Positions 4,355 through 25,463 of a stretch of DNA of 60,269 bases are shown one piece after another; within the stretch, counting starts at the first letter, position 1; each line of letters begins with the position of its first letter. This stretch comes from Gemmobacter serpentinus (GTDB taxonomy: Bacteria > Pseudomonadota > Alphaproteobacteria > Rhodobacterales > Rhodobacteraceae), in assembly GCF_008973825.1 (NCBI RefSeq), contig NZ_WCHR01000025.1, positions 1-60,269 on the forward strand, in the 5' to 3' direction. The notes beneath the pieces were generated by a model. The model was not told the origin of the DNA, did no database searches, and saw nothing but the letters and a program-made list of their open reading frames with translations. Both the position numbers and the translations under genes were made by a program.

Positions 4355-4371
4355 AGGCAAGGATTGGCCCC

Positions 4372-9105: not shown

Positions 9106-9908
9106 TGCTGGTCAACGTCACGCAAGGCGACAGTCCAGTCATTCTCGGCCTGCCGCACGGGGGGACGTATGTGCCCGACGCGCTGATGGCCCGGTTGAAT
9201 GACCGTGGGCGAAGGCTGTCAGACACGGATTGGCATATTGCTCAGCTTTATCAGGGGCTTTTGGCTGACGTTACGACAGTCGAGGCGACGTTTCACCGCT
9301 ATGTCATCGACGCCAATCGCGATCCAGCCGGGGCTTCGCTTTATCCGGGTGCCAACACCACGTCCCTGTGCCCGACAACGGATTTCGACGGATCGGATAT
9401 CTGGACCGCAGGGCAGGAGCCAAGCCCGGACGAGATTGCCGCCCGCCGGACGCAATACCACGCGCCCTATCACGACGCATTGGCCACCGAAGTAGATCGG
9501 GTGAAAGCCCGGCATGGTGTGGCGATTGTCTATGATTGCCATTCGATCCGCTCGACCATCCCCTTCTTGTTTGCGGGGCTGCTGCCGGTCTTTTCCATCG
9601 GCACCAATGACGGGCAGAACTGCGCGCCGCAGGTGTCGGACGCTGTCTCGGTGCCCTGTTTTGCGGCCACTCCGTTCGACACGGTGTTGAATGGCCGCTT
9701 CAAGGGCGGCTGGACCACCCGCCACTATGGTCAACCTGGCACGGGCGTTCATGCCATTCAGATGGAACTGGCCCAACGCGCTTATCTGGCCGCCGAGGCC
9801 GCACCTTGGACCTATGCAGCCCAGAGTGCCGCACCTTTGCGCGCGGTTCTGGCGCAAATCCTGCAATCCCTCGACACCCTTGCCCGTTCGGGTGTGCTCA
9901 ACCGCTAA
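9102..9908 (+). CDS. hutG: N-formylglutamate deformylase HutG
   Basis: HutG (268 residues) hydrolyses N-formyl-L-glutamate to glutamate and formate, the last step of the five-enzyme route. It belongs to the N-formylglutamate amidohydrolase family. The N-terminal '[10 protein letters not shown]', the central 'YDCHSIRS' and the C-terminal '[26 protein letters not shown]' block are family hallmarks. The ATG overlaps the hutH stop (ATGA). Together with HutF it shows that this organism uses the formylglutamate branch rather than direct formimidoylglutamase. Confidence 0.95.
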
Positions 9909-9919
9909 AGGAGCCTTCC

Positions 9920-11602
9920 ATGCTTGATCGCAAGAACAGCCGCGACATCTATCCCGCCACCGGCACTGAAATCACCGCGAAATCGTGGCAGACCGAGGCC
10001 GCGATGCGGATGTTGATGAACAACCTGCATCCTGACGTTGCCGAGAACCCGCATGAGTTGGTGGTTTACGGCGGCATTGGCCGCGCCGCGCGGTCTTGGG
10101 GCGATTTCGACCGGATCGTCGCCACGCTGAAAGACCTTGAAGATGACGAAACCCTGCTGGTGCAATCCGGCCGGCCGGTCGCGGTGGTCCGCACCCATAA
10201 GGATGCCCCGCGCGTTTTGATCGCCAATTCCAACCTCGTGCCGCATTGGGCGACTTGGGACCATTTCAACGAGCTCGATAAAAAGGGCCTGATGATGTAC
10301 GGCCAGATGACCGCCGGGTCGTGGATCTACATCGGCACCCAAGGCATCGTGCAAGGTACCTATGAGACCTTTGCGGAGGCGGGCCGTCAGCACTTTGGCG
10401 GATCACTCAAGGGCAAGTGGATCCTGACGGGTGGCCTTGGCGGCATGGGCGGGGCGCAGCCCTTGGCAGCTGTGATGGCGGGGGCTTGCTGTCTGGCCGT
10501 TGAATGCGACGAGACGCGGATCGATTTCCGCCTTCGCACCCGTTATGTCGATGCCAAAGCGCGGACTTTGGACGAGGCGCTGGCGATGATCGCCGAATGG
10601 ACCGCCAAGGGCGAGGCAAAGTCGGTCGGCCTCTTGGGCAATGCCGCCGATGTGTTCCCCGAACTGGTGCGCCGGATGAACGCAGGTGGCGCACGTCCTG
10701 ATATCGTCACCGACCAGACCTCTGCCCATGACCCGCTGCACGGCTATCTGCCGCAAGGCTGGAGCGTTGCCGAATGGCGGGCCAAACAGGAAACCGACCC
10801 GAAGGCGGTGGAAAAGGCCGCTCGCGCCTCGATGTGCATCCATGTGGCGGCGATGGTGGATTTCTGGAATGCGGGCGTGCCGACGCTGGATTATGGCAAC
10901 AACATTCGGCAGGTCGCGCAGGAAGAAGGGCTTGAAAACGCCTTTGCCTTCCCCGGCTTTGTGCCGGCCTATATCCGGCCCCTGTTCTGCAAGGGCATTG
11001 GTCCGTTCCGCTGGGTGGCGCTGTCCGGCGACCCCGAGGATATCTACAAAACCGATGCCGCGATGAAAAAGCTGTTCCCGGAAAATGAACACTTGCACCG
11101 TTGGCTTGATATGGCCGCCGACCGCATCGCCTTTCAGGGTCTGCCCGCCCGCATCTGCTGGATCGGGCTCGGGGATCGGCACCGCGCCGGGCTGATGTTC
11201 AACCAGATGGTCAAGTCGGGGGAGTTGAAAGCCCCGATCGTGATTGGCCGTGACCATCTGGATTCAGGATCGGTTGCCTCGCCCAACCGCGAGACCGAAA
11301 GCATGAAGGACGGATCAGACGCGGTCTCGGATTGGCCACTGCTCAACGCGCTGGTCAACACCGCGTCGGGGGCCACTTGGGTTTCGATCCACCACGGCGG
11401 CGGCGTCGGCATGGGCTTTTCGCAGCATTCTGGCGTGGTTATCGTGGCCGACGGCACTGATGATGCTGCCAAGCGGCTGGAGCGCGTCCTGTGGAACGAT
11501 CCGGCGTCAGGCGTCTGGCGTCACGCCGACGCAGGTTATGAAACCGCAATTGACTGCGCCAAAGAACGTGGTCTGCGCCTGCCGACTATTCTGGGCAACT
11601 GA
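9920..11602 (+). CDS. hutU: Urocanate hydratase HutU
   Basis: HutU (560 residues, usual family length) adds water to urocanate to form imidazolonepropionate, using tightly bound NAD+ as an electrophile. Conserved stretches include '[12 protein letters not shown]', '[18 protein letters not shown]'-type residues near 140, '[15 protein letters not shown]' near 175 and '[15 protein letters not shown]' near 495. I chose the ATG at 9920 because AAAGGAG at 9907-9913 precedes it at good spacing; an upstream in-frame start would overlap hutG by 100 bases. Formaldehyde genes follow after 77 bp. Confidence 0.95.
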
Positions 11603-11679: not shown

Positions 11680-12810
11680 ATGCGCACTCGCGCCGCTGTC
11701 GCCATCGCCCCCGGCAAACCGCTTGAAATCATGGAGGTAAACCTCGACGACCCGAAAGAGGGCGAGGTTCTGATTGAAATCAAGGCCACTGGCATTTGCC
11801 ACACTGACGAATTTACCCTGTCGGGTGCCGATCCCGAAGGGCTGTTTCCGGCCATTCTCGGCCATGAAGGCGCAGGCGTGGTCATCAAGTGCGGCCCCGG
11901 CGTGAAATCGCTGAAGCCGGGAGATCACGTCATCCCGCTTTACACCCCCGAATGCCGTGAATGCCCGTCTTGCCTGTCGCGCAAGACCAACCTTTGCACG
12001 GCCATTCGCGCGACGCAGGGCCAAGGGCTGATGCCGGATGGCACCACCCGGTTCTCCATGCTCGATGGCACGCCGATCTTTCATTACATGGGCTGTTCCA
12101 CCTTCGCCAACCATACGGTGATGCCGGAAATCGCGCTGGCCAAGGTGCGTGAAGACGCGCCGTTCGACAAGATCTGCTACATCGGCTGCGGTGTGACCAC
12201 CGGCATCGGCGCGGTGCTGAACACGGCGCAGGTTGAGATCGGTGCCAAGGCCGTGGTGTTCGGTCTGGGTGGTATTGGTCTGAACGTGATTCAGGGCCTG
12301 AAAATGGCCGGGGCCGACATGATCATCGGCGTCGATCTGAACAACGACAAAAAGGTCTGGGGCGAGAAGTTCGGGATGACCCACTTCATCAACCCGAAAG
12401 AGATCGAAGGCTCGGTGGTGCAGGCGATCGTTGATCTGACCAAGACCCCGTTCGACAAGATCGGCGGCGCGGATTACTCGTTCGACTGCACCGGCAACGT
12501 CAAGGTGATGCGGGACGCACTGGAATGCACCCATCGCGGCTGGGGCCAGTCGATCATCATCGGCGTGGCACCCGCTGGCGCCACCATCGAAACCCGCCCC
12601 TTCCAGCTGGTCACCGGCCGGGTCTGGAAAGGCACAGCATTCGGCGGCGCGCGCGGCCGCACCGATGTGCCGAAGATCGTCGATTGGTATATGGAGGGCA
12701 AGGTCGAGATCGACTCGATGATCACCCATATCCTCAAGCTGGAAGACATCAACAAAGGCTTCGATCTGATGCATTCGGGCGAAAGCATCCGGTCCGTCGT
12801 CGTATTCTGA
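11680..12810 (+). CDS. frmA: S-(hydroxymethyl)glutathione dehydrogenase (class III ADH)
   Basis: This 376-residue zinc alcohol dehydrogenase oxidises S-(hydroxymethyl)glutathione, the spontaneous or Gfa-made adduct of formaldehyde, to S-formylglutathione with NAD+. Catalytic zinc ligands are Cys40 and His62, and structural zinc ligands are Cys92, Cys95, Cys98 and Cys106. The nucleotide-binding GLGGIG motif is near residue 195. The ATG at 11680 has GAAAGGA upstream and gives the exact class III length. It lies 77 bp after hutU in the same direction with no clear terminator, which puts formaldehyde oxidation in the hut transcript. This is unusual, because histidine degradation itself releases no formaldehyde. 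Confidence 0.95.
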   Translation: MRTRAAVAIAPGKPLEIMEVNLDDPKEGEVLIEIKATGICHTDEFTLSGADPEGLFPAILGHEGAGVVIKCGPGVKSLKPGDHVIPLYTPECRECPSCLSRKTNLCTAIRATQGQGLMPDGTTRFSMLDGTPIFHYMGCSTFANHTVMPEIALAKVREDAPFDKICYIGCGVTTGIGAVLNTAQVEIGAKAVVFGLGGIGLNVIQGLKMAGADMIIGVDLNNDKKVWGEKFGMTHFINPKEIEGSVVQAIVDLTKTPFDKIGGADYSFDCTGNVKVMRDALECTHRGWGQSIIIGVAPAGATIETRPFQLVTGRVWKGTAFGGARGRTDVPKIVDWYMEGKVEIDSMITHILKLEDINKGFDLMHSGESIRSVVVF

Positions 12811-12870
12811 GATCACATTACCGGAACCGGACCGGCGCGTACTATCCGGGGAAATGGGAGGAGACACCAC

Positions 12871-13431
12871 ATGACCAAACCGAAATTGCACCCGGCACTG
12901 GACAGCGGCATCGCCGCGACCTCGCCGGATTTCACAGGCGGCACGCTTGTTTGTGCTTGTACCGACAAACCCGTGCGCGTGCGCGTCGAGGGCCAAATCG
13001 CCCACAACCACGCTTGTGGTTGCACCAAATGCTGGAAGCCCGAAGGCGCGATCTTTTCGATTGTCGGGGTGGCCCCGCATGACAAGGTGACTGTGCTTGA
13101 AAACGGTGACAAGCTTTCCGTTGTTGATCCAGCCGCTTTGATCCAGCGCCACGCTTGCCAGGCCTGCGGCGTTCATATGTACGGGCCCGTCACCCGCGAG
13201 CACCCGTTTCAGGGACTGGATTTCATCCATCCCGAGCGGTTTGAAGAAAAGGGTTGGGCGCAACCTGGCTTTGCGGCTTTTGTGTCCTCGGTGATCGAAG
13301 CGGGCGTTGATCCGTCGCAAATGGACGCCATCCGCGGCCAACTCAGGGCGATTGGGCTGGAACCTTCTGATTGCCTGAACCCGGGCCTGATGGACTATAT
13401 CGCAACTTGGACCGTTCAGCACCGCGTCTGA
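12871..13431 (+). CDS. gfa: Glutathione-dependent formaldehyde-activating enzyme Gfa
   Basis: Gfa (186 residues) promotes the condensation of formaldehyde with glutathione, supplying the substrate for the dehydrogenase encoded just upstream. Family zinc-binding cysteines are visible: Cys28 and Cys30 in 'LVCAC', Cys49, Cys51 and Cys54 in 'CGCTKC', and Cys96 and Cys99 in 'HACQACG'. The ATG at 12871 is preceded by GGGAGGAG, a strong ribosome site. It is the last gene of the hut transcript and converges on the LysR gene. Confidence 0.95.
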
Positions 13432-13446
13432 ACTGGGACATAAACA

Positions 13447-13474
13447 ACCGCAGGCAGGCTATCCCGCCTGCGGT
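13447..13474. terminator. Hairpin between gfa and lysR, possible bidirectional terminator
   Basis: ACCGCAGGC at 13447-13455 pairs perfectly with GCCTGCGGT at 13466-13474 across a 10-base loop. The 9-bp GC-rich stem lies between two converging genes and overlaps the last codons of the lysR gene. There is no T-run on either side, so classic intrinsic termination is not assured. Confidence 0.5.
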
Positions 13475-14394
13475 GCCGAAATCGCCTTTTGGCGGCGAGA
13501 AATTGTCTGAATCCAGTTCCGCAACTCTGCCCCAAATGGTTTTTCCAGCGCGCTCGGGTCCCAAGCCAGGGAGTAAGCCTGTGAGAGCTTGAGCCGGATG
13601 TCGAAAGGCACGACAAGCCGCCCCGAGGCGATATCTTCGGTTGCCATGGAAAGTTGTGCCAGCACGAACCCCCGACCATTAATCGCCGCGTCAATCGCCG
13701 CACTGGACATCGAAAAGGCAACCTCGCCCACAGCCTTCCGACGAGGTACGCCAACATGTGCCGCCCAATCGCCCCAGCCAAGTGCTGCACCCTGCGCGCG
13801 ATCCCATTCGATCCCCAAAAGCGGCGCATCGAGTATGTCCCCGGGCGTTTGCAGCTTCAGTCTTGCAAGAAGCGACGGAGAACAAGCCGGGACGACCCAA
13901 TCCGTGAACAACTCGGTTCGATGATCAAAGCGCGTTATCAGATCACCGTAAGACAGCCGAAAGTCTACCTCATCAGATCCAAAGCGGGGTTCGGTGTCGT
14001 CCCCGATCAAGCGCACTGTTGCGGTGGGATGTGACGATTGCCAGTCGAACAGTTGCGCGCCAATCCATTTGGAGGCCAGCGACGGCAGACACGAAATCGT
14101 CAGTGATGCCTCTGATCGAGCCCGCAGCATCTTGCTTTGTGCCTCGCGCAGCGCATCAAACGCAGCTTTGACGTCGTCATGATAGTGGCGCCCGCGTGTC
14201 GTCAACGCGATCGACTTGCCTTTGCGCTCGACCAGCCGCAGCCCGACCTCTGCCTCCGCTTTGCGAAGCTGCTGGCTGATCGCGCCGACTGTCACACCCA
14301 GTTCGGTTGCGGCCGCTGTAGCACTGCCAAGTCGGCCAAATGCCTCGAAGGCCTGGATCGCACGCATGGAGGGAAGTTTTTGCAAGTTCGTCAT
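13459..14394 (-). CDS. LysR family transcriptional regulator (GcvA-like)
   Basis: The 311-residue protein has an N-terminal winged helix-turn-helix ('SMRAIQAFEAFGRLGSATAAATELGVTVGAISQQLRKAEAEVGL', reported here only as the region of residues 9-52) and a LysR substrate-binding domain. The start at 14394 gives the normal LysR N-terminus; an upstream ATG at 14475 would add 27 unrelated residues. It is divergent from the Rieske operon with 111 bp between the starts, the usual position for a LysR activator of that operon. With the HutC-type site it suggests dual control: general histidine status through HutC and a specific co-inducer through LysR. Confidence 0.88.
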   Translation of the reverse strand: MTNLQKLPSMRAIQAFEAFGRLGSATAAATELGVTVGAISQQLRKAEAEVGLRLVERKGKSIALTTRGRHYHDDVKAAFDALREAQSKMLRARSEASLTISCLPSLASKWIGAQLFDWQSSHPTATVRLIGDDTEPRFGSDEVDFRLSYGDLITRFDHRTELFTDWVVPACSPSLLARLKLQTPGDILDAPLLGIEWDRAQGAALGWGDWAAHVGVPRRKAVGEVAFSMSSAAIDAAINGRGFVLAQLSMATEDIASGRLVVPFDIRLKLSQAYSLAWDPSALEKPFGAELRNWIQTISRRQKAISAPQAG

Positions 14395-14474
14395 TCCGGC
14401 AGAAGTAGAGTTTAGATTTTCTAAAATAGAACACAGAAGCAAGTGCTTTTTGAATCGGTAAATGCAGACTAGCA

Positions 14475-14490
14475 ATATGTCTACACATAA
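14475..14490 (+). promoter_or_regulatory. Putative HutC operator before the Rieske operon
   Basis: TATGT-CTAC-ACATA at 14476-14489 is a perfect palindrome in its arms. Its reverse complement is identical over 15 bases to the site in the hutF/hutI promoter. It sits 16 bases before the Rieske start codon, between the ribosome site and the likely promoter, where a bound repressor would block transcription. No second copy is visible 20-21 bp away, unlike at hutF/hutI. Confidence 0.75.
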
Positions 14491-14505
14491 AGCCGGGAGC
14501 AGATC

Positions 14506-15543
14506 ATGTACCTAACCAACAGCTGGTATGTCGCAGCGTGGGATCACGAGGTCGGCAAGGACCTTTTCCCAGTCAAGATGCTGGGCGAACAAATCGTGCT
14601 TTACCGGAAGACCAATGGGGAAGTGGCGGCCCTGGAGGACGCCTGCCCGCATCGCAAGCTGCCGCTGTCGATGGGTCGCATCAAAGGCGACACGGTTGAA
14701 TGCGGCTATCACGGTCTGACATTCAACAGCACAGGCACCTGTACTCGGGTTCCTGGAGTCGAGAAAATCCCGCATGTCGCCTGCGTGCGCTCTTATCCGA
14801 TCCATGAACGCTACGGCTTGCTTTGGGTCTGGATGGGCGACGCCGAAAAGGCCGATCCTGCGCTGATCTTCCAGGTGGACCATTGGGGCGATCCGGCCTG
14901 GGGCCTGAATCGCGGCGATTCGATGGCGATCGATTGCAACTATCTTTACATGACCGACAACTTGCTCGACCCGTCTCATGTGGCTTGGGTTCACCAATCG
15001 TCCTTCGGCAATGCCGCAACTGAAGAGGCGCCGCTGGAAACCACCATCGGCGAAAATGGCGTTACCGTTTGGCGCTGGATGCTCGATGTGGAGCCTGCGC
15101 CCTTCTATGCGCCCTATCTGAAGTTCAAGGGTAACACCGACCGCAAGCAACACTACGAAGTGCACTACCCAAGCCATGCCATCATCAAGGCGATCTTCGC
15201 GCCTGCAGGCAGCGGTGGCGAAGGCCGGCCGCTGCATGAGGACACGTTCCTGATGGACAGCTACAATTTCATGACCCCTATCGATGAGAACACCACCAAA
15301 TACTACTGGTTCCAGATGCGCAATTTCGCGCCCGACGACGCAAAAATCTCTGCAGAATTTGCCACCTCGGTGCGTGGTGCCTTTGATGAGGATCGCGCCG
15401 TTCTGACTGCAGTTCACAAGGGCATGGCCAACAAGCGCACGCCGAACCTTGATCTCAAGATCGACGTCGGCCCGATGCGCTTCCGCCGCAATCTGGCCAA
15501 ACTGATCGAGGCAGAGCAGGCACAGAAAGTCGCGGCTAAATGA
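14506..15543 (+). CDS. Rieske non-haem iron oxygenase, VanA-like demethylase
   Basis: This 345-residue oxygenase subunit is of the vanillate O-demethylase/Rieske monooxygenase type. The 2Fe-2S ligands are Cys47 and His49 (ACPHR) and Cys66 and His69 (CGYHG). The mononuclear iron site has His158 and His163 in 'DPSHVAWVH', with the bridging Asp155 and an acidic cluster at 294-296. Members of this group oxidise O- or N-methyl groups and release formaldehyde, or oxidise rings. GGGAGC precedes the ATG. It heads an operon that shares a repressor site with hut and lies next to formaldehyde genes, so I infer demethylation of a histidine-like substrate. The true substrate cannot be read from sequence. 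Confidence 0.92.
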   Translation: MYLTNSWYVAAWDHEVGKDLFPVKMLGEQIVLYRKTNGEVAALEDACPHRKLPLSMGRIKGDTVECGYHGLTFNSTGTCTRVPGVEKIPHVACVRSYPIHERYGLLWVWMGDAEKADPALIFQVDHWGDPAWGLNRGDSMAIDCNYLYMTDNLLDPSHVAWVHQSSFGNAATEEAPLETTIGENGVTVWRWMLDVEPAPFYAPYLKFKGNTDRKQHYEVHYPSHAIIKAIFAPAGSGGEGRPLHEDTFLMDSYNFMTPIDENTTKYYWFQMRNFAPDDAKISAEFATSVRGAFDEDRAVLTAVHKGMANKRTPNLDLKIDVGPMRFRRNLAKLIEAEQAQKVAAK

Positions 15544-16658
15544 CCCTGAACATCGACCAGGGTCTGCAAAGCAAAGCTGGGTTTCGCGGTCTGAGGGTTG
15601 CCGCAAAAATCGTCGAAAGCAGTCTCATCACCTCGTTTCATCTGGAAGCGGCGGATGGGTCGGCCTTGCCAGCCTTCCGTCCCGGTCAGTTTCTGGTATT
15701 CAAGATCCCGTCGGGCGACCCAAAAGGCTATGTGCTGCGCAACTACAGCCTGTCCGGCTCGCCCGACGATCACTGCCATTACCGCATTTCGGTCAAGCGT
15801 GAGCCGTCAGCAGGGCCGGGCCTGCCGGTCGGGCAAAGTTCCAACTACCTGCATGACAATGTCTGCGTCGGCGATGTCTTGATCGCCGACGGCCCGCGCG
15901 GCGAATTTGTGCTGGATGAGGCCAGTGACCGCCCGGTGGTTCTGTTTAGCGGCGGGGTCGGGCTGACGCCAATGGTGGCGATGCTGCACGCACTGGTCAA
16001 CCGGTCGGCCCGTCGCACCCTGTTTCTGCATGCCTGCGAAAACGGCGAGGTGCATGCCCTGCACGATGAGGTCAATGGTCTGATCAGCCAGCGTCCCGGC
16101 TTGTCGGCCCATTACTGCTATCGTGCGCCCAGTGCCGAAGATCGCATTGCAAACCGATTTGACAGTGAAGGCTTCATCACCCGCGACGTGCTGCAGAGCC
16201 TGCTGTGCCTCGACGATTACGATTTCTACCTCTGTGGCCCACCACCATTCATGCAGGCGATGTTCCAAACGCTGCGCGGCCTTGGCGTGGCCAAGGACCG
16301 CATCGCCTATGAATTCTTCGGCCCAGCCACGGTGCTTGACGCGGAGGTCAAGCCGAAGCCGGTCGCTCCGACAGCCGGTACCACTCCCGTGCCCGCAGTC
16401 GGGGCGATCACGGTCGAGTTCCGCAAATCTGGAATCGTTGCCGAGTGGAATGCCAGCGCGCAGTCGTTGCTGGCCTTTGCAGAAGATCACGGGTTGAAGC
16501 CGGAATTCAGCTGCCGCGCGGGCATCTGCGGCACATGCACGTCGCGGATCATTTCGGGCGAGGTGAGCTATTTCGAAGACCCGCTTGAAGATCTGGCGCA
16601 GGGCGAATTGCTGCTGTGTTGCTCGCTCCCAAAGACCGCCATCGTATTGGATCTGTGA
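15540..16658 (+). CDS. Oxygenase reductase, FAD/NAD(P) domain plus 2Fe-2S ferredoxin
   Basis: The 372-residue protein passes electrons from NAD(P)H through flavin and a plant-type 2Fe-2S cluster to the Rieske oxygenase encoded upstream. The FNR-type flavin motif RNYS is at 67-70 and the nucleotide motif GGVGLTP at 138-144. After a Pro-rich linker (about 270-290) the ferredoxin domain carries Cys325, Cys330, Cys333 and Cys360 or Cys361. The domain order, flavin first and ferredoxin last, is that of PaaE/KshB and flavohaemoprotein-like reductases. Its start overlaps the oxygenase stop by four bases. Confidence 0.93.
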   Translation: MTLNIDQGLQSKAGFRGLRVAAKIVESSLITSFHLEAADGSALPAFRPGQFLVFKIPSGDPKGYVLRNYSLSGSPDDHCHYRISVKREPSAGPGLPVGQSSNYLHDNVCVGDVLIADGPRGEFVLDEASDRPVVLFSGGVGLTPMVAMLHALVNRSARRTLFLHACENGEVHALHDEVNGLISQRPGLSAHYCYRAPSAEDRIANRFDSEGFITRDVLQSLLCLDDYDFYLCGPPPFMQAMFQTLRGLGVAKDRIAYEFFGPATVLDAEVKPKPVAPTAGTTPVPAVGAITVEFRKSGIVAEWNASAQSLLAFAEDHGLKPEFSCRAGICGTCTSRIISGEVSYFEDPLEDLAQGELLLCCSLPKTAIVLDL

Positions 16659-17800
16659 TGACCGCTTCGCCCAAAATCCAACCAAACCCCGGCGCGGCAT
16701 CTGCGGCCCTGATGGTCAATCCGAATGTGGCTGCTTTGCCAGCCTACAATGCAGGGATGTCGCTTGCACGCGCCCGGTTGCTCAGCGGGCATGACGATTT
16801 GGCACGGCTGGCCAGCAACGAAAATCCCGATGGCTGCGCGCCCGCAGTCCTGGCTGCCTTGGCGAATGGTGGTTTTGAGCCTTGGCGATACGCCGATCCG
16901 GCCTGCACCGCATTGCGCGAAGCTTTGGCCGCGCGGCTCGGAGTCGATGCAGGTGTGATTGTGGCTGGCAATGGGTCCGAGGAAATGATCGCCGCGATCT
17001 CGCGTGGCGTTCTGGTGGCTGGCTCGCAGGTGGTGACGGTGGTGCCAAGCTTTGGTCTGCATGAGATCGAGCCGCTGGCTGCTGGTGCCTCGGTCTTGAA
17101 AGTTCCGATGACGGTAGATGCAGGCTTTGATCTCGCGGCGCTGGAGGCGGCAATTGCCGCCGGGCCGCGCGTGGTGTTTCTGTCTTCGCCGTGGAACCCG
17201 GTTGGGCCCGCGCTGGATAAGTCTGCGCTGCAGCGCCTGATCGCAGCCGTTCGGCCGGGGACTTTGTTCGTTCTGGATGAAGCCTATTTCGAATATGCAG
17301 ATGCTGATGCACCCGACGGAATTGAAAGCCTGCGCAATAGCGGCATTGCTTTCGTTGTGCTGCGTACCTTTTCCAAAGCCTATGGTCTGGCCGGTTTGCG
17401 CGTCGGGTATGCAGTATGTTCAGACCCTGAAATTGCGCGGGTGATTACCGCGGCCAAGACCCCGTTCAACGTGAATGGGGCCGCACAAATCGCCGCGGTG
17501 GCAGCCCTTGAGGATGAGGCATGGATGACGGCCTCGGTTGCGCGCATCCGTTCCGAACGGGATCGCGTTGCGCTTGCCTTGGCCGGAATGGGCCTTCATG
17601 CTGCCGCATCGCAGACGAATTTCCTTTTCTTTGACACCAGGCACGACAGTTCCATTGTCGCCGCGGCACTTCTGCAAGACGGCATCATCGTCAAGGCATG
17701 GCGTGAATTGGGGTATGAGACATGGCTTCGCGTCACGATCGGCAAGCCTGCCGACAATGATCGGCTGATCGCCTCGCTCCAAAAGCAGGTGGCGGGATGA
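16658..17800 (+). CDS. Class I/II aminotransferase, HisC-like
   Basis: This 380-residue fold-type I PLP enzyme resembles histidinol-phosphate aminotransferase. Lys240 in 'FSKAYGLAGLRVGY' forms the Schiff base, Asp207 in 'LDEAY' contacts the pyridine nitrogen, and Asn180 in 'SPWNPVG' is conserved. The ATG at 16658 overlaps the reductase stop (TGATG). In this operon it could interconvert histidine (or a methylated histidine) and imidazolepyruvate. A biosynthetic HisC role is unlikely given the catabolic neighbours. The imidazole substrate is inferred from context. Confidence 0.88.
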   Translation: MTASPKIQPNPGAASAALMVNPNVAALPAYNAGMSLARARLLSGHDDLARLASNENPDGCAPAVLAALANGGFEPWRYADPACTALREALAARLGVDAGVIVAGNGSEEMIAAISRGVLVAGSQVVTVVPSFGLHEIEPLAAGASVLKVPMTVDAGFDLAALEAAIAAGPRVVFLSSPWNPVGPALDKSALQRLIAAVRPGTLFVLDEAYFEYADADAPDGIESLRNSGIAFVVLRTFSKAYGLAGLRVGYAVCSDPEIARVITAAKTPFNVNGAAQIAAVAALEDEAWMTASVARIRSERDRVALALAGMGLHAAASQTNFLFFDTRHDSSIVAAALLQDGIIVKAWRELGYETWLRVTIGKPADNDRLIASLQKQVAG

Positions 17801-19209
17801 GGACGCAGGCTGTCGCAAGCGTTGATCCTCTGGCGTTGAAACAAGCGTTGACGGCGGCTGTTGGCGCTGGCCATGTGCGCAATGATGCTGGCCCCGACCA
17901 TGGTGCGACATTGCTGGTCCTGCCCGGATCAACGGCCGAAGTTGCCGCTGTTGTCGCCATTGCACGGACGCACGGTGTCAGCATCGTGGCGCAAGGCGGC
18001 CATACCGGTTTGGTCGGCGGTTGCCAGTCTCATCCCGGCCAGATCGTGCTGTCACTGACACGCATGGCATTGATTGAGGCCATTTACCCCGACGAGCGCG
18101 TGGCGATCGTGCAGGCGGGCGTGGCACTGGAAGCCTTGCAGAGTGCTGCCCTGACACATGGGCTGGAACCCGGCATCGACCTGGCCGCGCGAGGAACCGC
18201 GACCATCGGCGGCATGGTGTCGACCAACGCGGGTGGCATCATGGCGCATCGCTACGGGGTGATGCGTCATCGCGTGCTGGGGCTGGAGGCGGTGCTGCCT
18301 GATGGCACCATCTATTCCGACATGACCCGCGTGGTGAAAAATACGGCGGGCTACGATCTGAAGCACCTGTTTATCGGCGCTGAAGGCACCCTTGGCATTG
18401 TCACGCGGGTGGTCATCAAACTGGAGCCTTTGCCGCAGTCCACCGCCACGGCGATGCTGGGCCTGCCATCGGTGGCTGCGGCGTTTGAGGCAATCAATCT
18501 CGCGCTGCGCGTCGATGCGGGGCATTTGCGGGCGGCCGAAGGACTCTGGCAGTCCTATATTCAACTGACCGCGCGGGCCCAGGGCTGGTCGGAACCGAGC
18601 TTTCCACTGGATCAACCGATTTGCCTGTTGCTGATGCTGGGCGGTGCCAACCAAGCTAGTCTGAACGAGGGTATCGAGCAGATCTTTGCTGCCATCTTCG
18701 ACCGTCACCCAACAGCCACTGGCATTATTGCCGGATCCAAACGCCAAGAATCCGATTTGTGGCGATTGCGCGAGGATACTGATCAGCTCTACCGCGCCCA
18801 TGCGGCAGCGCCGTCCTATGATGTCTCCGTGCCGCTTTCCGAAATCGAGGCTTATGTTGAACATGTGACAAGTGGTCTAAACCGGATCGACGCCGATCTA
18901 GTTCCCTATATTTTTGGGCATCTTGCCGACGGTAATCTGCATATCGTGCTGAACCGCGTCGGTCCGCTGGATACCGCTCTGTCCCGCGCTGTGGACCATG
19001 TGCTTTATGCCGCCCTGCGCGCTCTCGGCGGGTCCTTTTCCGCTGAACATGGGGTGGGGTCCAAACGCATACCCGCCTTGGTCGCCACATCTGATCCGGC
19101 GAAGCTGGCCACGATGATGCTGTTCAAGCAGGTTCTGGACCCTGATCTGACCCTGAATCCCGGCAAAGTTCTGCCGATCCCCACCCAAGCCCGCGAGAAA
19201 TCCCAATGA
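17797..19209 (+). CDS. FAD-linked 2-hydroxyacid dehydrogenase (GlcD/D-lactate type)
   Basis: The 470-residue flavoprotein has a PCMH-type FAD-binding domain in the N-terminal half ('AQGGHTGLVGGC' near residue 67; 'ARGTATIGGMVSTNAGG' near 130) and a FAD-oxidase C domain. The C-terminal half ends with 'HLADGNLHIVLNR' near 370 and 'FSAEHGVGSKR' near 410, typical of glycolate oxidase GlcD, D-lactate and D-2-hydroxyglutarate dehydrogenases. The start overlaps the aminotransferase stop by four bases. Next to that enzyme it may oxidise an imidazole-lactate-type hydroxyacid to the keto acid. The substrate is unproven. Confidence 0.9.
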   Translation: MRTQAVASVDPLALKQALTAAVGAGHVRNDAGPDHGATLLVLPGSTAEVAAVVAIARTHGVSIVAQGGHTGLVGGCQSHPGQIVLSLTRMALIEAIYPDERVAIVQAGVALEALQSAALTHGLEPGIDLAARGTATIGGMVSTNAGGIMAHRYGVMRHRVLGLEAVLPDGTIYSDMTRVVKNTAGYDLKHLFIGAEGTLGIVTRVVIKLEPLPQSTATAMLGLPSVAAAFEAINLALRVDAGHLRAAEGLWQSYIQLTARAQGWSEPSFPLDQPICLLLMLGGANQASLNEGIEQIFAAIFDRHPTATGIIAGSKRQESDLWRLREDTDQLYRAHAAAPSYDVSVPLSEIEAYVEHVTSGLNRIDADLVPYIFGHLADGNLHIVLNRVGPLDTALSRAVDHVLYAALRALGGSFSAEHGVGSKRIPALVATSDPAKLATMMLFKQVLDPDLTLNPGKVLPIPTQAREKSQ

Positions 19210-21158
19210 TACAGCCGCGCGACCTGACGCAATCCGCCGACACCAGCCTACCGTTCGCGTTGGACTACGCGACGATGCGTCATCGGTTCTTGGCAGCCGC
19301 GCGAGCAGCAGGTGCGGCTCTTTCAGAGCACATTCACCCGCTGCACGGGCCAGATGGCACGACAATCGCCACCGATGTGGCGCTCATCGGGCAGGCGGAT
19401 GCAGCCAAGCTTATGGTTCTGATTTCCGGCACGCACGGGGTGGAAGGGGCTTACGGCTCTGCCTGCCAAACGGCATGGCTGGCGCAAAAGGCCAATTGGG
19501 CCTTGCCCGACGACACCGCGGTTCTGATGGTTCACCTGATCAACCCCTGGGGCACCGCCTGGTCTCGTCGGGTGAACGAAGACAACGTCGATTTGAACCG
19601 CAACTTCATTGACTGGACCACCCGCCCGCCCGTGAACCCGGGCTATGCCGAACTGCACTCGGCTTTGGTCGTGCCCGCCCTGGAGGGTCCCGAAAGGATT
19701 GCCGCCGATGATGCACTGGCAGAACAGACCCATGCCAAGGGTCAGACGAAAATCTCCTCGATTATAGAGGCGGGTCAATATGGCTTTCCCGACGGGTTGT
19801 TCTACGGTGGAGATGCCCCGGTCTGGTCCAACCGCGTGCTGGCCGCGATCCTGGCACAGTTTGGGCAAAGGGCTGCGCAGGTCATCGTGTTCGATCTGCA
19901 CACCGGCGCGGGACCCTACGGCTATCCGGCCCTCTTGTCGGTCAGCCCGGTCGATCATCCCGGGTTGGCTTGGGGCGCGCAGATATTCGGCCCCGCGATG
20001 GGTCAGGTCATCACCGGGCAAACATCCACCACCACAACCGGCATCGCGGCCACCGCTACCGGCTATGTGTCAAACTTCGTGCGCGAGGCCATGCCTCAAG
20101 CGCGTGTGCTGCCGCTGGTAATGGAATGTGGCACGCTGAGCAGTGCCGAGATGCAGCGGCGTGTCGTCGAGGACAACTGGCTGCACCTTTTCGGCAAGCT
20201 TGGCTCTGATCGCGCCCAGCGGATCAAGTCCGAACTGGTTCAGGGCTTCATTCCGCAGGATGAAAGCTGGCAACAAATCTGCCTTGCAACCAGCCTGCGT
20301 CATTTCGATAACGCGCTTTCCGCCCTGAAAAAGGTCGAGGCCTTGCCAAGGACAGCCGCCGCACCGAAAAGCCCGCTTTCAATTGCGCCCAAAGGCACTG
20401 CTGCTGTCGAGGTCGTCGATCTGCATAAATCCTTCGGCCCGCTGGAGGTTCTGCAAGGTGTGAACCTGATCGCCTATCCGGGCGAAGTCGTATCGATGAT
20501 CGGCTCGTCCGGGTCCGGAAAAAGCACCATGCTGCGCTGTATCAACCTGTTGGAACAGCCAAACTCCGGCCGCATCGTGATCGACGGTGAAGTTGTGCGG
20601 ATGAAAACCGCGGTCAAGGGTGCCGCGACTATCGCTGATCAGCGCCAGATCGAGCATATCCGGGCCCGCGTCGGGATGGTGTTCCAAAGCTTCAACCTGT
20701 GGCCCCACATGACGGTCTTGGAAAACATTATTGAGGCACCGATCCATGTGCTGAAAGAGCCGCGCGCCGATGCGGTCGAACACGCCCACGCCCTTCTGAA
20801 AAAGGTCGGGCTCTCGGACAAGCACGCGCACTATCCCGGTCAGCTTTCGGGCGGGCAGCAGCAGCGCGCCGCTATCGCCCGCACATTGGCGATGCGTCCC
20901 AAGGTGATGCTGTTCGACGAGCCGACATCGGCGCTGGACCCCGAGTTGGTGGGCGAAGTGCTGCGTGTCATCCGCCAACTGGCCGAAGAGGGCAATACGA
21001 TGATCCTTGTGACGCATGAGATGCAGTTCGCACGCGAAGTCAGTCACAAGGTGATGTTTCTCCACCGGGGGCGCGTGGAGGAAGAAGGAAGCCCGGCCGA
21101 TCTGTTCGGTCAACCGCGTTCAGAACGTTTGCGTCAGTTCCTGGCCCGGACGTTCTGA
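19206..21158 (+). CDS. Fusion: DUF2817 M14-type hydrolase plus polar amino acid ABC ATPase
   Basis: One uninterrupted 650-residue frame joins two enzymes. Residues 1-380 are a DUF2817 zinc hydrolase of the M14/aspartoacylase superfamily: His77 and Glu80 in 'GTHGVEG', Arg132 in 'NLNRNF', His232 in 'DLHTG' and Glu307 in 'MECGT'. Residues 400-650 are a PAAT-family ATPase: Walker A 433-441, Q-loop near 494, signature LSGGQ 547-551, Walker B ending DE 571-572 and H-loop His604. No ATG or GTG with a ribosome site lies near the junction, so a real fusion is likely. The binding protein and both permeases follow. I infer that a cytoplasmic hydrolase is tethered to the importer, perhaps trimming an N-acyl or dipeptide form of the substrate on entry. 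Confidence 0.9.
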   Translation: MIQPRDLTQSADTSLPFALDYATMRHRFLAAARAAGAALSEHIHPLHGPDGTTIATDVALIGQADAAKLMVLISGTHGVEGAYGSACQTAWLAQKANWALPDDTAVLMVHLINPWGTAWSRRVNEDNVDLNRNFIDWTTRPPVNPGYAELHSALVVPALEGPERIAADDALAEQTHAKGQTKISSIIEAGQYGFPDGLFYGGDAPVWSNRVLAAILAQFGQRAAQVIVFDLHTGAGPYGYPALLSVSPVDHPGLAWGAQIFGPAMGQVITGQTSTTTTGIAATATGYVSNFVREAMPQARVLPLVMECGTLSSAEMQRRVVEDNWLHLFGKLGSDRAQRIKSELVQGFIPQDESWQQICLATSLRHFDNALSALKKVEALPRTAAAPKSPLSIAPKGTAAVEVVDLHKSFGPLEVLQGVNLIAYPGEVVSMIGSSGSGKSTMLRCINLLEQPNSGRIVIDGEVVRMKTAVKGAATIADQRQIEHIRARVGMVFQSFNLWPHMTVLENIIEAPIHVLKEPRADAVEHAHALLKKVGLSDKHAHYPGQLSGGQQQRAAIARTLAMRPKVMLFDEPTSALDPELVGEVLRVIRQLAEEGNTMILVTHEMQFAREVSHKVMFLHRGRVEEEGSPADLFGQPRSERLRQFLARTF

Positions 21159-21246
21159 GACTGACATCGCGACCGGGCAAGCCAGAACAGGGCGAAATCG
21201 GTGCGGTGAAGACCAAAAGGAAACGAAGTTCAACAAGGAGACGGAC

Positions 21247-22041
21247 ATGAAATTGAAAGTTCTTTCGCTCATCGCGCTACTCGCTGGGGCTGCGTCTGGG
21301 GCGCAGGCCGAAGGCCAGCTGAAGATCGGGACCGAAGGTGCGTATCCCCCGTGGAGCATGGCCGATGCCAACGGTGCTGTCACCGGCTTTGACGCCGATG
21401 TAGGCAACATGCTTTGCACCAAGCTGGCGATGGAATGTGTATTCGTGGTTCAGGCATTTGACGGGCTGATCCCGGCATTGCAGGCCAACCAGTTCGACAT
21501 CATCATTTCGGGCATGTCGATCACCGCCGACCGCAAGAAGGAAATCAACTTCTCGATCGGTTATGCTGAACTGGCCAACAAGGTTGTCGTCGCCAAGGAG
21601 TCCGATCTCGCGGGCATCACCGAGATTCCGGCGCTGCTGGCCGCTCTTGATGGCCATTCGGTTGGCGTGCAGGCAGGCACCACCCATGCCCATTTCATGG
21701 AAAAGCTGGCGCCGACCGCAACGCTGAAATCCTACGCCACTTTGGATGAAATGCAGATCGACCTTGCGAACGGCCGCGTCGATGCCGGCTTTGCCGATGT
21801 ATCGGCCCTGCAGAGCTTTCTGGACAAGCCCGAAGGCGCAGGCTTCCAGTTTGTCGATGTGAACATCATCTCCACCTTTGACCCGACCTTGGGCGAAGGC
21901 GTTGGCGTCGGCATTCGGCAGGATGATGCGGACCTGAAAGCGAAAATCGACACCGCGCTTTGCGAGCTTATCGCGGATGGCTCGATCAAGGCTTCCAGCG
22001 AGAAGTGGTTCAACATGGATATCTCGCGCCCCTGCCAGTAA
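21247..22041 (+). CDS. ABC transporter periplasmic binding protein (polar amino acid type)
   Basis: The 264-residue protein belongs to solute-binding family 3 (HisJ/ArgT-like). A signal peptide ends at 'GAQA' near residue 21. The mature protein begins with the typical 'LKIGTEGAYPPWSMADANGAVTGFDADVG' region, and 'IISGMSITADRKKEINFS' follows near residue 85. AAGGAG eight bases before the ATG is a strong ribosome site. It delivers ligand to the permease pair encoded downstream. Family 3 proteins bind amino acids and derivatives, so histidine-like ligands are plausible. Confidence 0.92.
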   Translation: MKLKVLSLIALLAGAASGAQAEGQLKIGTEGAYPPWSMADANGAVTGFDADVGNMLCTKLAMECVFVVQAFDGLIPALQANQFDIIISGMSITADRKKEINFSIGYAELANKVVVAKESDLAGITEIPALLAALDGHSVGVQAGTTHAHFMEKLAPTATLKSYATLDEMQIDLANGRVDAGFADVSALQSFLDKPEGAGFQFVDVNIISTFDPTLGEGVGVGIRQDDADLKAKIDTALCELIADGSIKASSEKWFNMDISRPCQ

Positions 22042-22116
22042 CGCCGGGCCGAAATTTCAAGAGCAGACTGCGCCCGGCATCGGCTGGGCGCATGTTTCAG
22101 AAAACAGGATGAAGCG

Positions 22117-22824
22117 ATGGAATTCGGTTTGGTACAGGTCTGGGAGGGTGGCTGGGTCGGTGCAATTCTGCGTGGTGCCGCAGTCACCATTGCCGTCGGT
22201 GTGGCTAGCATGATCTTCGGGCTGATCATCGGGACAATCTGCGGCCTGATCAAATGGCGCGCGGTTTTCGGGCTGTCACAAATGGTTGATCTTTACACGT
22301 CGGTCATCCGTGGGGTGCCGGAACTGTTGATCATCTACCTGCTGTTTTTCGGGTCCGTGGAATTTGTTACCAAGATTGCAACGGCCTTCGGCTTTGCGGA
22401 ACTTGCCGACGCGGGCTATGCCTTCTTCATCACAGTGGCCGCGATCAGCGCCATTTCGGGCGCTTATTCAACCGAGGTCATCCGCGGTGCGCTTGCTGCA
22501 ATCCCGAAAGGCCACATCGAAGCGGCTGTGGCGCTTGGCCTGCCAAGTCGCCGGATCTTCGCGCGCATCATCGCCCCGCAGATGCTACGCATTGCCTTCC
22601 CGGGCATAAACAACGTCTGGCAAACCACGATCAAGGACACGGCATTGGTGTCGGTGGTTGGACTGCAAGAGTTGATGCGGACGGCCTTTATCGGCGCGGG
22701 ATCAACCCATAATCCCCTGATCTTCTATTCAATTGCCGCCTTAGTTTACTTGATGATCACTCTGACAAGCCAGGTCGGCTTCAATAGGGTTGAAACCCTT
22801 TTGTCTCCTCGGAAAGGTGCCTGA
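22117..22824 (+). CDS. ABC transporter permease (HisQ/HisM type)
   Basis: The 235-residue integral membrane protein has about five hydrophobic helices and the 'IRGVPELLIIYLLFFG' and 'EVIRGALAAIPKGHIEAAVALGL' (EAA loop, around residues 125-147) regions of polar amino acid permeases. The EAA loop docks on the ATPase part of the fusion protein. The gene starts 75 bp after the binding protein and is followed after three bases by the second permease. Confidence 0.92.
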   Translation: MEFGLVQVWEGGWVGAILRGAAVTIAVGVASMIFGLIIGTICGLIKWRAVFGLSQMVDLYTSVIRGVPELLIIYLLFFGSVEFVTKIATAFGFAELADAGYAFFITVAAISAISGAYSTEVIRGALAAIPKGHIEAAVALGLPSRRIFARIIAPQMLRIAFPGINNVWQTTIKDTALVSVVGLQELMRTAFIGAGSTHNPLIFYSIAALVYLMITLTSQVGFNRVETLLSPRKGA

Positions 22825-22827
22825 GCC

Positions 22828-23547
22828 ATGGAGCTTATTCAGCTTGCCGTGCCTGTGCTGCTCAAAGGTCTTTGGATGACCCTGACGCTTACGGCCCTTT
22901 CCGTGGCTATCGGTTTTAATCTGGGCTTGGGCCTTGCGATCCTGCGCGGGTCAGACAATTCGTGGCTTTCCGGGTTTGCGCGCTACTACAGTATTGTTTT
23001 TCGCGGCACCCCACTTTTGGTGCAGATCTTCCTAATTTATTACGGCCTTGGGCAGATCAAATTCATCCACGACACGCCAGCCATGTGGTGGGTCGTCAGC
23101 GAAGGTTCACGCTGCGCGGTTCTGGCATTGGCGCTGAACACCGCAGCCTACACGTCTGAGATTTTGCGCGGCGGACTTGTTGCCGTGCCCGCTGGTCTGG
23201 TCGAAGCGGCCAAAGCCTGCGGTATGTCGCGCATGACGCGTTTTCGCCGCATCGAGTTTCCGCTGGCGATCCGGCAGGCGTTGCCCGCCTATGGCAACGA
23301 AATTGTGTTGATGGTCAAAGGCACCAGCCTTGCCTCGACCATCACCGTGCTGGAAATCACCGGCTACGCGAAACGCTTGATGAGCCAGACATTTGCGATT
23401 TTCGAAGTTTTCGCCATCGCAGGGGTGCTCTATTTGGTGCTGAATCTGGTCTTGATTGGCATTATGCGGCTGGTCGAACGCCGATTGATGCGCCACACTG
23501 GGTCAGCACCGCAGATTAGATCAGCTACCATGCAGCAACCGATCTGA
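22828..23547 (+). CDS. ABC transporter permease (HisM/HisQ type)
   Basis: This 239-residue paralogue of the preceding permease completes the heterodimeric membrane channel. It has the 'FRGTPLLVQIFLIYYGLGQ' region near residue 57 and the EAA loop around 'EILRGGLVAVPAGLVEAAKACGM'. It is the last gene of the Rieske operon. The sequence beyond its stop contains only short hairpins without a T-run and then an IS3-type end. Confidence 0.92.
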   Translation: MELIQLAVPVLLKGLWMTLTLTALSVAIGFNLGLGLAILRGSDNSWLSGFARYYSIVFRGTPLLVQIFLIYYGLGQIKFIHDTPAMWWVVSEGSRCAVLALALNTAAYTSEILRGGLVAVPAGLVEAAKACGMSRMTRFRRIEFPLAIRQALPAYGNEIVLMVKGTSLASTITVLEITGYAKRLMSQTFAIFEVFAIAGVLYLVLNLVLIGIMRLVERRLMRHTGSAPQIRSATMQQPI

Positions 23548-23772: not shown

Positions 23773-25463
23773 GGGTCATCCTCAATTTGTGTGGTGCAGA
23801 GGGAGCATTCGGGCCCTGAGCAAGTTCGGGCCGGCTCGCCCATACATCGCGCGCTTCAAGGTCTTCAATCGGTTGATCTGGCCTTCGGCTTGACCATTGC
23901 TCCACTCCATTTCGATGGCATTCCTGACCGCATCAATGTCTCTGTTCAAGGTTCGGGCGAACCGCACGATGGGCGCCAGGTCCGTTTCGATCGCATCGTC
24001 GATCCAGGCGGGCAGCGGGTCTGCTTTTCGACCACGCAAGATGCCATTGAAACGCATGGCGAGGCGCCGCATTGTTGTGAAGGCAGGCGAGCCTTCCTTG
24101 AGAACTTCGACTTTTCTCGCCTGCTCCAAGGTAAATCTTCCTCTTGGTTTGATGCAGAGTGCGGCCGCGATAACCGGGGAAATCGCGTGCCCCGTTTCCG
24201 GGTCCCGGACCGGTGCAAGGACCTGATCTTCCTTGGTGGGTCCCTCCTGTTCCTCTTTTTCGGCTCTGCGCCATCCGGCCAAGAGCCGCTGCAAGTTTGA
24301 CAGGCTGCCCTCATAACCACGTTCTTGGATCAAAGGGAGCAGCGCATTGCCGCTGCGAATACCGTTCTCCCAGCGTTGCTTCAGGTACTCTTCAAAATAC
24401 CATGCGGAGGAGCGCTTGAGGACGGCGCGCTTTCGGTCAGGTGGCGTTTCGAACTGCAGCCATTTCGCGACGCTACGCCGGGGAAACCCCGTTCGCCGTC
24501 CGATCTCGCTGCACGTCAGCCCTTGCTGCCTAAGTACCGAAATGGTCTTGAAAATCTCTTCTCGGGATTTGCGATGGGCAAGACGTGATTTCAGAAGGTT
24601 CTGAGCTGTGCTGATGTTGTCTGCATCGGAGAGCAAGGCCCTTCCAGTTGCACGACCGTGCAGGTTCATTTGCTCCTCGATTGCCATGCGAAGGTTCTGC
24701 ACGATATGAAACCGGTCGGCGACCTGTTCCGCCTGCGGCGCTCCTTGTCGGGCGGCTTGGGCGTAGAGACCGCAGCGATCCCGGCTTATGACTTCCACCT
24801 CAGGATGACGCCTTAGCCAGTCGGTGCATGTGACGACATCACGATCTTCGAGAACATCGATGACAGCGCGACGCTCGAGGTCGATGATGATCGTCCCGTA
24901 GTTCTGCGACTTTCGCCAACTCCAATCATCGATCCCGATGATCCGTGCGCGTGGTGGAACAACTTGAGCTGCGCGTAGCAACTGTCGGAGAATAGTATCG
25001 TCACTGACCCGGATACCCAGTCGCCGCAAGAGCCGTTCAGCTGGGGTGCCGCCAGCGGCGTGCGCCATATGGCCTAAGAGTTGTGCCTGTCGCGACGTCC
25101 GGCGCGCATAAGGGGTCGCCACCGCCCCCTCGCGATCGGAGAACGTGCGGCGGCGGCAATCCGAGTTCAAACATCGCCATCGACAAACCCTGAGCTCGAT
25201 CCAAACCGCTTGGCCCTGAGCAGGAAAATCCTCGATCCGCCGGCGCCGCCAACCATGTCGTTGTCTTGAGGACGTCCCGCACTCAGGGCAGGTGCCATTC
25301 GGAGCCAGTCTGCCAGATACGACCCATGCACCCGTCTCAGACTGGCGGACCTCACCAACCTCGACGCTGGCGGTTGGAGCCCAATGCTTCTTCGATACCA
25401 CGGCCTGATCCCTTCAATCTGTGAAACTCGGTCAGACCGTGACACACAAATTGAGGATGACCC
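23773..25463 (-). mobile_element. Complete ISL3-family insertion sequence
   Basis: The element is 1,691 bp and bounded by 21-bp perfect inverted repeats, each starting GGGTCATCCTCAATT inward from 23773 and from 25463. It contains a single transposase gene on the minus strand. The eight bases on each side (CTTAATTA and GGATAAGG) do not match, so the usual ISL3 8-bp target duplication is absent. A deletion or recombination after insertion probably removed one flank. Confidence 0.9.
23782..25401 (-). CDS. ISL3 family transposase
   Basis: The 539-residue transposase has the ISL3 N-terminal zinc-binding region ('CPECGTSSRQRHGW' near residue 37 and a second Cys pair 'CRWRCLNSDC' near 73). A helix-turn-helix part and a DDE_Tnp_ISL3 catalytic domain follow, including 'IIGIDDWSWRKSQNYGTIIIDLERR' around 158-182 and 'RDRCGLYAQAARQGAPQAEQVADRFHIVQNL' around 208-238. 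The C-terminal 'EWSNGQAEGQINRLKTLKRAMYGRAG' is diagnostic. The gene appears intact and the element may still be mobile. Confidence 0.95.
   Translation of the reverse strand: MVSKKHWAPTASVEVGEVRQSETGAWVVSGRLAPNGTCPECGTSSRQRHGWRRRRIEDFPAQGQAVWIELRVCRWRCLNSDCRRRTFSDREGAVATPYARRTSRQAQLLGHMAHAAGGTPAERLLRRLGIRVSDDTILRQLLRAAQVVPPRARIIGIDDWSWRKSQNYGTIIIDLERRAVIDVLEDRDVVTCTDWLRRHPEVEVISRDRCGLYAQAARQGAPQAEQVADRFHIVQNLRMAIEEQMNLHGRATGRALLSDADNISTAQNLLKSRLAHRKSREEIFKTISVLRQQGLTCSEIGRRTGFPRRSVAKWLQFETPPDRKRAVLKRSSAWYFEEYLKQRWENGIRSGNALLPLIQERGYEGSLSNLQRLLAGWRRAEKEEQEGPTKEDQVLAPVRDPETGHAISPVIAAALCIKPRGRFTLEQARKVEVLKEGSPAFTTMRRLAMRFNGILRGRKADPLPAWIDDAIETDLAPIVRFARTLNRDIDAVRNAIEMEWSNGQAEGQINRLKTLKRAMYGRAGPNLLRARMLPLHHTN

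Follow-up and report, generated by a model that had tools for sequence, protein, structure and literature searches.

What does a complete histidine utilization (hut) cluster have to do with the Rieske-type oxygenase operon and the two formaldehyde-disposal genes that adjoin it in Gemmobacter serpentinus? The question arises from a stretch of 60,269 nucleotides (contig NZ_WCHR01000025.1, positions 1 to 60,269; hereafter, the window), in which hutC, D, F, I, H, G, and U are all present and pass their NCBIfam cut-offs (for hutD, that of Pfam), frmA starts 77 bases past the end of hutU, and gfa is next on the same strand (Table 1). The operon itself, at 14506-23547, is divergent from a lysR gene, and its first five open reading frames (ORFs) overlap by a few bases. 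An earlier, sequence-only reading of this DNA (the original prediction) had listed the hut cluster, frmA and gfa, and the Rieske operon, and this gene list proved correct by ORFs and family models. We give about even chances to a LysR-controlled route for methylated histidine that would feed Hut, with ring-N-methylhistidine the likeliest substrate; the broader class of function, i.e., demethylation of a methylated histidine into Hut with the methyl group on either the ring or the alpha-amino nitrogen, is probable.

The first line of evidence is the genomic linkage of the oxygenase to hut. We mapped 119 oxygenases (≥45% identity) with their neighbors, taken from the best 80 of 425 named loci, which lean to close relatives, and from stretches of the family genomes, with flanks fetched up to ~10 kb; the occurrences are not independent, as 15 come from Mesorhizobium and some contigs appear twice under different identifiers (e.g., L037/L064). 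At least one of hutU, hutH, hutI, hutF, and hutG was present in the fetched flank of 29 of the 119 oxygenases and of 26 of the 87 whose flanks exceeded 8 kb on both sides. Hut-linked oxygenases occur in alpha-, beta-, and gammaproteobacteria, and their gene orders vary. In eight loci (L038, L045, L122, L138, L141, L152, L153, and L154), no more than 150 bp separate the oxygenase from hutU; in Xinfangfangia (L061) the order is hutC-oxygenase-reductase-HisC-GlcD, then hutF, hutI, and hutH farther along. Two loci (L129 and L130) have the order hutU-hutD-oxygenase, and the hut genes are on the opposite side in Aureimonas (L103), Mycoplana (L105), Fulvimarina (L131), Acidovorax (L120), and Rhodoferax (L123). 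On the oxygenase tree, hut linkage required at least 20 changes (25 rows with linkage and 38 without; 63 of 81 dereplicated rows scored), this tree being the product of a quick search with Shimodaira-Hasegawa-like approximate likelihood ratio support (SH-aLRT) only, and short-flank rows without linkage being excluded, which left 63 rows to score for hut and 62 for formaldehyde genes.

A control in 295 Rhodobacteraceae genomes placed 13 of 65 clade members (≥46% identity) near hutU among the matches listed, as against 0 of 22 paralogues (37-42% identity; Fisher p = 0.033). Chance alone would account for 0.37 of the 65, an estimate that assumes one hutU per 4.1-Mb genome, and second hutU copies beyond the matches listed may go uncounted. 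Across the same family, hutU was found in 45 of the 57 genomes that carry the oxygenase clade vs. 106 of the 238 that do not. A phylum-wide draw of 398 genomes gave hutU in 11 of 12 clade-bearing genomes vs. 136 of 386 others (p = 1.1e-4, uncorrected for kinship), where four of the 12 share a genus, one is the window's own, and G671, at 43% identity, was dropped. Linkage with hut, a check proposed at the outset, came out above chance for this oxygenase clade.

The second line of evidence concerns formaldehyde. Since ordinary Hut histidine breakdown yields none, the oxygenase is the natural source of the formaldehyde that FrmA and Gfa would handle. Either frmA or gfa was found in the flank of 15 of the 119 oxygenases (11 of the 87 with the longer flanks). 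The Ensifer adhaerens locus (L095) carries, all in one orientation and in this order, genes for oxygenase, reductase, HisC, DUF2817-ATPase, binding protein, and two permeases, then frmA, gfa, and GlcD; a Mesorhizobium locus (L078) has an frmA on either side, with gfa after the second copy. Another locus (L190), outside the window's class, has the order oxygenase, reductase, binding protein, two permeases, ATPase, histidine ammonia-lyase relative, frmA. Formaldehyde-gene linkage requires 7 changes on the oxygenase tree (8 rows with, 54 without), and the in-operon cases L095 and L190 are the strongest formaldehyde evidence. The original interpretation is partly supported: its general inference, that the operon demethylates a methylated histidine-type compound and feeds the product to Hut, is backed by repeated hut linkage and by in-operon formaldehyde genes in other lineages.

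The regulator and its presumed target form a third line. The pattern TTTAG-N5-CTAAA occurs in the lysR-oxygenase gap, 16 bases before the likely lysR start, and this is its only exact match in the 4.26-Mb genome, where a reversed control pattern has 3 matches. A divergent lysR adjoins 60 of the mapped oxygenases, and 49 of these 60 pairs carry the motif; across 2.2 Mb of related loci the pattern was matched 63 times, 56 of them no more than 260 bases from a lysR or oxygenase start. Where the operon is split, the motif is found at the separate units as well: 269 bases upstream of the reductase in L113, in which reductase, HisC, and GlcD form a unit of their own, and 228 bases upstream of the binding protein gene in L132. 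These copies suggest a single regulon, with the motif as the putative LysR binding site. The same pattern was seen 59-77 bases upstream of a conserved, secreted-looking protein of ~380 amino acids (aa) by the hut-oxygenase block of three loci (L125:13999, L129:11115, and L130:11133). A search for a HutC-type operator motif gave 4 matches against a shuffle mean of 2.02, and 17 of 100 shuffles reached 4, so that no clear excess was found.

The oxygenase itself matched the Rieske (PF00355, 78.2 bits; cut-off 20.3) and VanA_C (PF19112, 167.7 bits; cut-off 23.5) families. Its AlphaFold model (predicted local distance difference test, pLDDT, 92.7) is nearest in fold to dicamba O-demethylase DdmC (3gke; template modeling score, TM, 0.90) and guaiacol O-demethylase (7qwt; TM 0.86). 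With these it shares both domains and a near full-length alignment, but identity is only ~29%, and the window enzyme has invariant residues of its own (as compared with the 37-42% paralogues) and sits among histidine genes. More distant fold matches were saxitoxin-pathway oxygenases and the methylxanthine N-demethylases NdmA and NdmB (TM 0.73-0.78), the latter being Rieske enzymes that strip N-methyl groups from a heterocycle; they differ from the hut-linked window enzyme in their purine substrates and show 18-23% identity to it. Oxidative N-demethylation is also carried out by the Rieske monooxygenases GbcA and CntA, which act on glycine betaine and carnitine. A likeness to this system is seen in the reductase, a weak match to the GbcB model (NF058606, 125.6 bits; cut-off 500, missed) that scores best against flavohaemoprotein (270.7 bits of 432) and whose gene is at most 50 bp away from that of the oxygenase in 58 of the 119 occurrences. 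The oxygenases differ, however, since CntA/GbcA-like neighbors carry Ring_hydroxyl_A and the window enzyme VanA_C. Among 41 clade members, W161, S166, F167, Y201, Q215, E218, S252-Y253-N254, Y266, and F269-Q270 show ≥95% conservation. Because this set is common to hut-linked and unlinked members and is absent from 20 outgroup rows (three of which, L161, L168, and L174, were taken from the wrong strand), it is plausible that all members of the clade share one substrate.

The importer offers a further clue to the substrate. The binding protein missed the HisJ equivalog (NF011965, 147.6 bits; cut-off 459) and scored best against the nopaline-binding protein NocT. An opine reading was set aside, since at the position of a Ser in NocT the window protein carries Asp, as does the Pseudomonas version. 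In HisJ/LAO proteins the alpha-amino group is bound at this position, and the retained site pattern argues for a free amino acid as the probable ligand. The importer ATPase is fused to DUF2817 (PF10994, 335.1 bits; cut-off 23), a domain whose best fold matches were M14 chains, among them aspartoacylase/desuccinylase-like enzymes and CphZ, a cyanophycin dipeptide hydrolase (low TM of 0.3-0.5, normalized to the query). As in M14 peptidases, the presumed metal and catalytic residues (H77, E80, H232, and E307) do not vary among 32 sequences. Unlike them, DUF2817 found no match among solved structures by sequence at E = 0.1, its profile gave weak matches only, and it usually occurs in fusion-length ORFs: 34 of 39 best hits are ORFs of at least 650 aa, long enough for the ATPase fusion. 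In three Pseudomonas loci (L132, L133, and L136), DUF2817 is a separate gene between ATPase and oxygenase. The M14-type hydrolase of the original prediction was right as to the modeled fold, with DUF2817 as its family, but hydrolase and ATPase, listed there as two parts, are one ORF.

A peptide-type importer (SBP_bac_5, two permeases, and a double ATPase) is found instead in Bosea (L102), and genes of the same clusters occur in Methylobacterium (L086) and Microvirga (L115). Overall, genes of peptide-type ATP-binding cassette (ABC) importers were observed in or near the oxygenase cluster of L086, L102, L115, L061, and L126, where the HisJ-type importer and DUF2817 were not seen; an M20 peptidase is nearby in L126.

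From gene content, operon forms, the operator-like site, and linkage, all of which were observed directly, we infer the substrate and every reaction of the following route. The HisJ-type importer would take up a free histidine-type amino acid, and the fused DUF2817 hydrolase would, where needed, free it from a conjugate. The Rieske oxygenase and its reductase would then hydroxylate the methyl carbon, giving a carbinol that would decompose to formaldehyde and histidine; Gfa and FrmA would take up the formaldehyde via glutathione, and HutHUIFG would convert the histidine to glutamate. The HisC-like and GlcD-like enzymes most likely oxidize and transaminate the corresponding 2-hydroxy acid, of the imidazole-lactate type, which would thereby join the same pool. 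Compared with the Hut pathway as known, of which the window holds the complete, family-confirmed hutCDFIHGU, the difference lies in frmA and gfa after hutU and in the adjoining, probable demethylation operon. Ring-N-methylhistidine is the likeliest substrate because one demethylation suffices; it also fits the amino-acid importer, the VanA type of the oxygenase, and the fact that the window operon has no second demethylase, and we rank it most likely, with hercynine second.

Several observations weigh against this route. Hut genes were found in the fetched flank of none of the 15 Mesorhizobium, 5 Ensifer, 4 Rhizobium, or 4 Martinezella loci, and neither hut nor formaldehyde genes were found in that of 14 Mesorhizobium loci (of 15), all 4 Rhizobium loci, and 4 Pseudomonas loci (of 5). 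At the threshold used, 12 of the 57 clade-bearing Rhodobacteraceae genomes lacked hutU, four of these 12 being <85% complete. An operon normally situated away from hut and formaldehyde genes had been named in advance as counter-evidence, and this is in part what was found, given that only 26 of 87 oxygenases with flanks of >8 kb have hut genes nearby and only 11 of 87 have frmA or gfa. A second frmA, 91% identical, lies on another contig of the same genome, and gfa is the sole match in the genome; being single-copy, the window gfa may be a housekeeping gene that serves the whole cell. The role of the HisC-like and GlcD-like enzymes is a guess. Their Pfam families were as predicted at the outset (HisC-like aminotransferase and FAD hydroxyacid dehydrogenase), but they fell below the HisC (TIGR01141, 272.1 vs. 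276.55; PRK05166, 421.2 vs. 540) and GlcD (TIGR00387, 227.9 vs. 567.9 bits) cut-offs and so may have another task. Finally, a conserved family of ~370 aa, u0, occurs in 18 loci, and three further points of this kind, each of which favors methyl groups on the alpha-amino nitrogen, are given with that alternative below.

In favor of the route, a scan for competing pathways found no Pfam family in more than 4 of the 106 neighbor proteins examined. These were drawn from the 139 that lay closest among 276 candidates, all of 180-620 aa; because that size limit excludes SoxA-like proteins, and u0 has no Pfam match, both were counted separately (9 and 18 loci). The u0 members scanned (L117, L119, L122, L124, and others; e.g., L119:8872-9987) had no Pfam match, and they often stand directly beside the oxygenase. 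Locus L119 also has a creatininase-family gene.

The alternative that survives best places the methyl groups on the alpha-amino nitrogen, as in hercynine or a partly methylated relative, with the oxygenase removing one and sarcosine-oxidase-type enzymes, or a lyase without the 4-methylideneimidazole-5-one (MIO) cofactor, finishing before HutU. In the L190 operon, oxygenase, reductase, importer, and frmA accompany a histidine ammonia-lyase relative (L190:3455-5023, minus strand; TIGR01225, 533 bits, cut-off 539) in which the MIO tripeptide ASG is replaced by YLG; GSVGASGD is kept in all 30 HutH hits of the other loci, and ergothionase is a lyase without MIO. SoxA-like genes occur in 9 loci, and in four of these (L038, L147, L148, and L151) the distance to the oxygenase is no more than 550 bp. 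Locus L150 has, within 10 kb of its oxygenase, an ergothionase-like lyase, a homologue of the trimethylamine methyltransferase MTTB, and a Rieske enzyme of the Ring_hydroxyl_A type. In the window, though, no second demethylase or MIO-less lyase adjoins the operon, the binding protein keeps its alpha-amino site pattern, HisC-like enzymes require a primary amine, and the oxygenase is of the VanA_C type where carnitine/betaine-like Rieske neighbors have Ring_hydroxyl_A. Taken alone, a hercynine-type substrate seems to us unlikely, but it is a serious rival, and the evidence leaves it and ring-N-methylhistidine unseparated. Ergothioneine itself is less likely, because the window hutU passed the urocanase cut-off and fell below both thiourocanate hydratase cut-offs (NF058530, 674.7 vs. 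930; NF058531, 686.8 vs. 880), for which reason we also rejected S-methylthiourocanate or thiourocanate hydratase as the identity of this gene.

Less probable than hercynine is an operon devoted mainly to imidazole-lactate or a related hydroxy acid, from which the GlcD-like and HisC-like enzymes would make histidine while the Rieske pair acted on a ring-substituted hydroxy acid. HisC-like genes are in the flank of 53 of the 119 oxygenases and GlcD-like genes in that of 44; in L133 and L134, a HutC-type regulator is accompanied by HisC-like genes and portions of a second importer; and Pseudomonas acidovorans reportedly uses imidazole-lactate by way of an aminotransferase and Hut. Nevertheless, five hut-linked loci (L129, L130, L138, L141, and L152) have neither HisC nor GlcD in the flank, and the binding protein looks suited to an alpha-amino acid, which makes this possibility rather doubtful. 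Improbable above all is that the enzyme is an ordinary aryl demethylase (O- or N-) whose substrate is some other compound and whose hut adjacency is incidental: the nearest solved structures are indeed the dicamba and guaiacol O-demethylases, and for 90 of the 119 copies the fetched flank contained no hut gene, but hut linkage is far above chance, absent from paralogues in the same genomes, and subject to at least 20 changes on the tree, and the invariant residues occur in linked as well as unlinked members but not in the outgroup rows.

The preferred ring-N-methylhistidine route appears to be new. Searches of the open literature, with subscription journals mostly outside their scope, found no Rieske enzyme for methylhistidine or hercynine, none within a hut cluster, no bacterial demethylation route into Hut, and nothing relevant on imidazole lactate or DUF2817. 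This agrees with the earlier statement that no pathway with this gene set had been described; the gene set is real, conserved, and undescribed as far as the literature was searched. More tentatively, with chances somewhat short of even, we propose a widespread catabolic route for ring-N-methylhistidine or a conjugate, with a dedicated Rieske N-demethylase, its own LysR operator, an importer ATPase-hydrolase fusion, formaldehyde disposal, and repeated joining to Hut in alpha-, beta-, and gammaproteobacteria. Methylhistidine is available from actin, muscle dipeptides, and other proteins, and hercynine from fungi and bacteria. If true, the route would give a function to the oxygenase clade, to DUF2817, and to the hydrolase-ABC ATPase fusion, and would address a gap in nitrogen and one-carbon cycling.

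Table 1. Hut, formaldehyde, and Rieske operon features of the window, with supporting family models.
Feature	Position	Strand	Support
hutC, GntR-type repressor	3588-4298	-	TIGR02018 257.1 bits (cut-off 220)
hutD, start inferred	4342-4911	+	PF05962 133.6 bits (cut-off 25)
hutF, formimidoylglutamate deiminase	4918-6276	-	TIGR02022 563.2 bits (cut-off 413.05)
hutI, imidazolonepropionase	6359-7570	+	TIGR01224 458.3 bits (cut-off 298.15)
hutH, histidine ammonia-lyase, GSVGASGD (MIO) motif	7567-9105	+	TIGR01225 652.9 bits (cut-off 539.15)
hutG, N-formylglutamate deformylase	9102-9908	+	TIGR02017 360 bits (cut-off 278.75)
hutU, urocanate hydratase	9920-11602	+	TIGR01228 957 bits (cut-off 375)
frmA, S-(hydroxymethyl)glutathione dehydrogenase	11680 (ATG)-12810	+	TIGR02818 581.9 bits (cut-off 543.95)
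gfa, S-(hydroxymethyl)glutathione synthase	12871-13431	+	TIGR02820 303.2 bits (cut-off 234.55)
LysR-type regulator, GcvA-like	13459-14394 (ORF to 14475; ATG 14394 preferred)	-	PF03466, PF00126
Operator-like TTTAG-N5-CTAAA	14411-14425	unstranded	conserved motif
Rieske non-haem iron oxygenase, proposed N-demethylase	14506-15543	+	PF00355, PF19112
Reductase (FAD/NAD/2Fe-2S)	15540-16658	+	PF00970 FAD_binding_6, PF00175 NAD_binding_1, PF00111 Fer2
HisC-like aminotransferase	16655-17800	+	PF00155
GlcD-like FAD 2-hydroxyacid dehydrogenase	17797-19209	+	PF01565, PF02913
Fused DUF2817 (M14-fold) hydrolase and HisP-like ABC ATPase, one 650-aa ORF	19206-21158	+	PF10994, PF00005
HisJ/LAO-type periplasmic binding protein	21247-22041	+	PF00497
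ABC permease, ArtQ/HisQ-like	22117-22824	+	PF00528; equivalog cut-offs missed
ABC permease, ArtM/HisM-like	22828-23547	+	PF00528; equivalog cut-offs missed

Elsewhere in the genome lies a second hut cluster (C15:1-19900; L156), whose hutU is 85% identical; the stretch fetched around it showed no oxygenase operon. RNA families and tRNAs were searched for in the window and none were found. A phage-integrase-family recombinase (294-1403, minus strand) lies at one end of the window and an ISL3-type transposase (23782-25401, minus strand) just past the importer; the hut/Rieske cluster might occupy a mobile or rearranged stretch.

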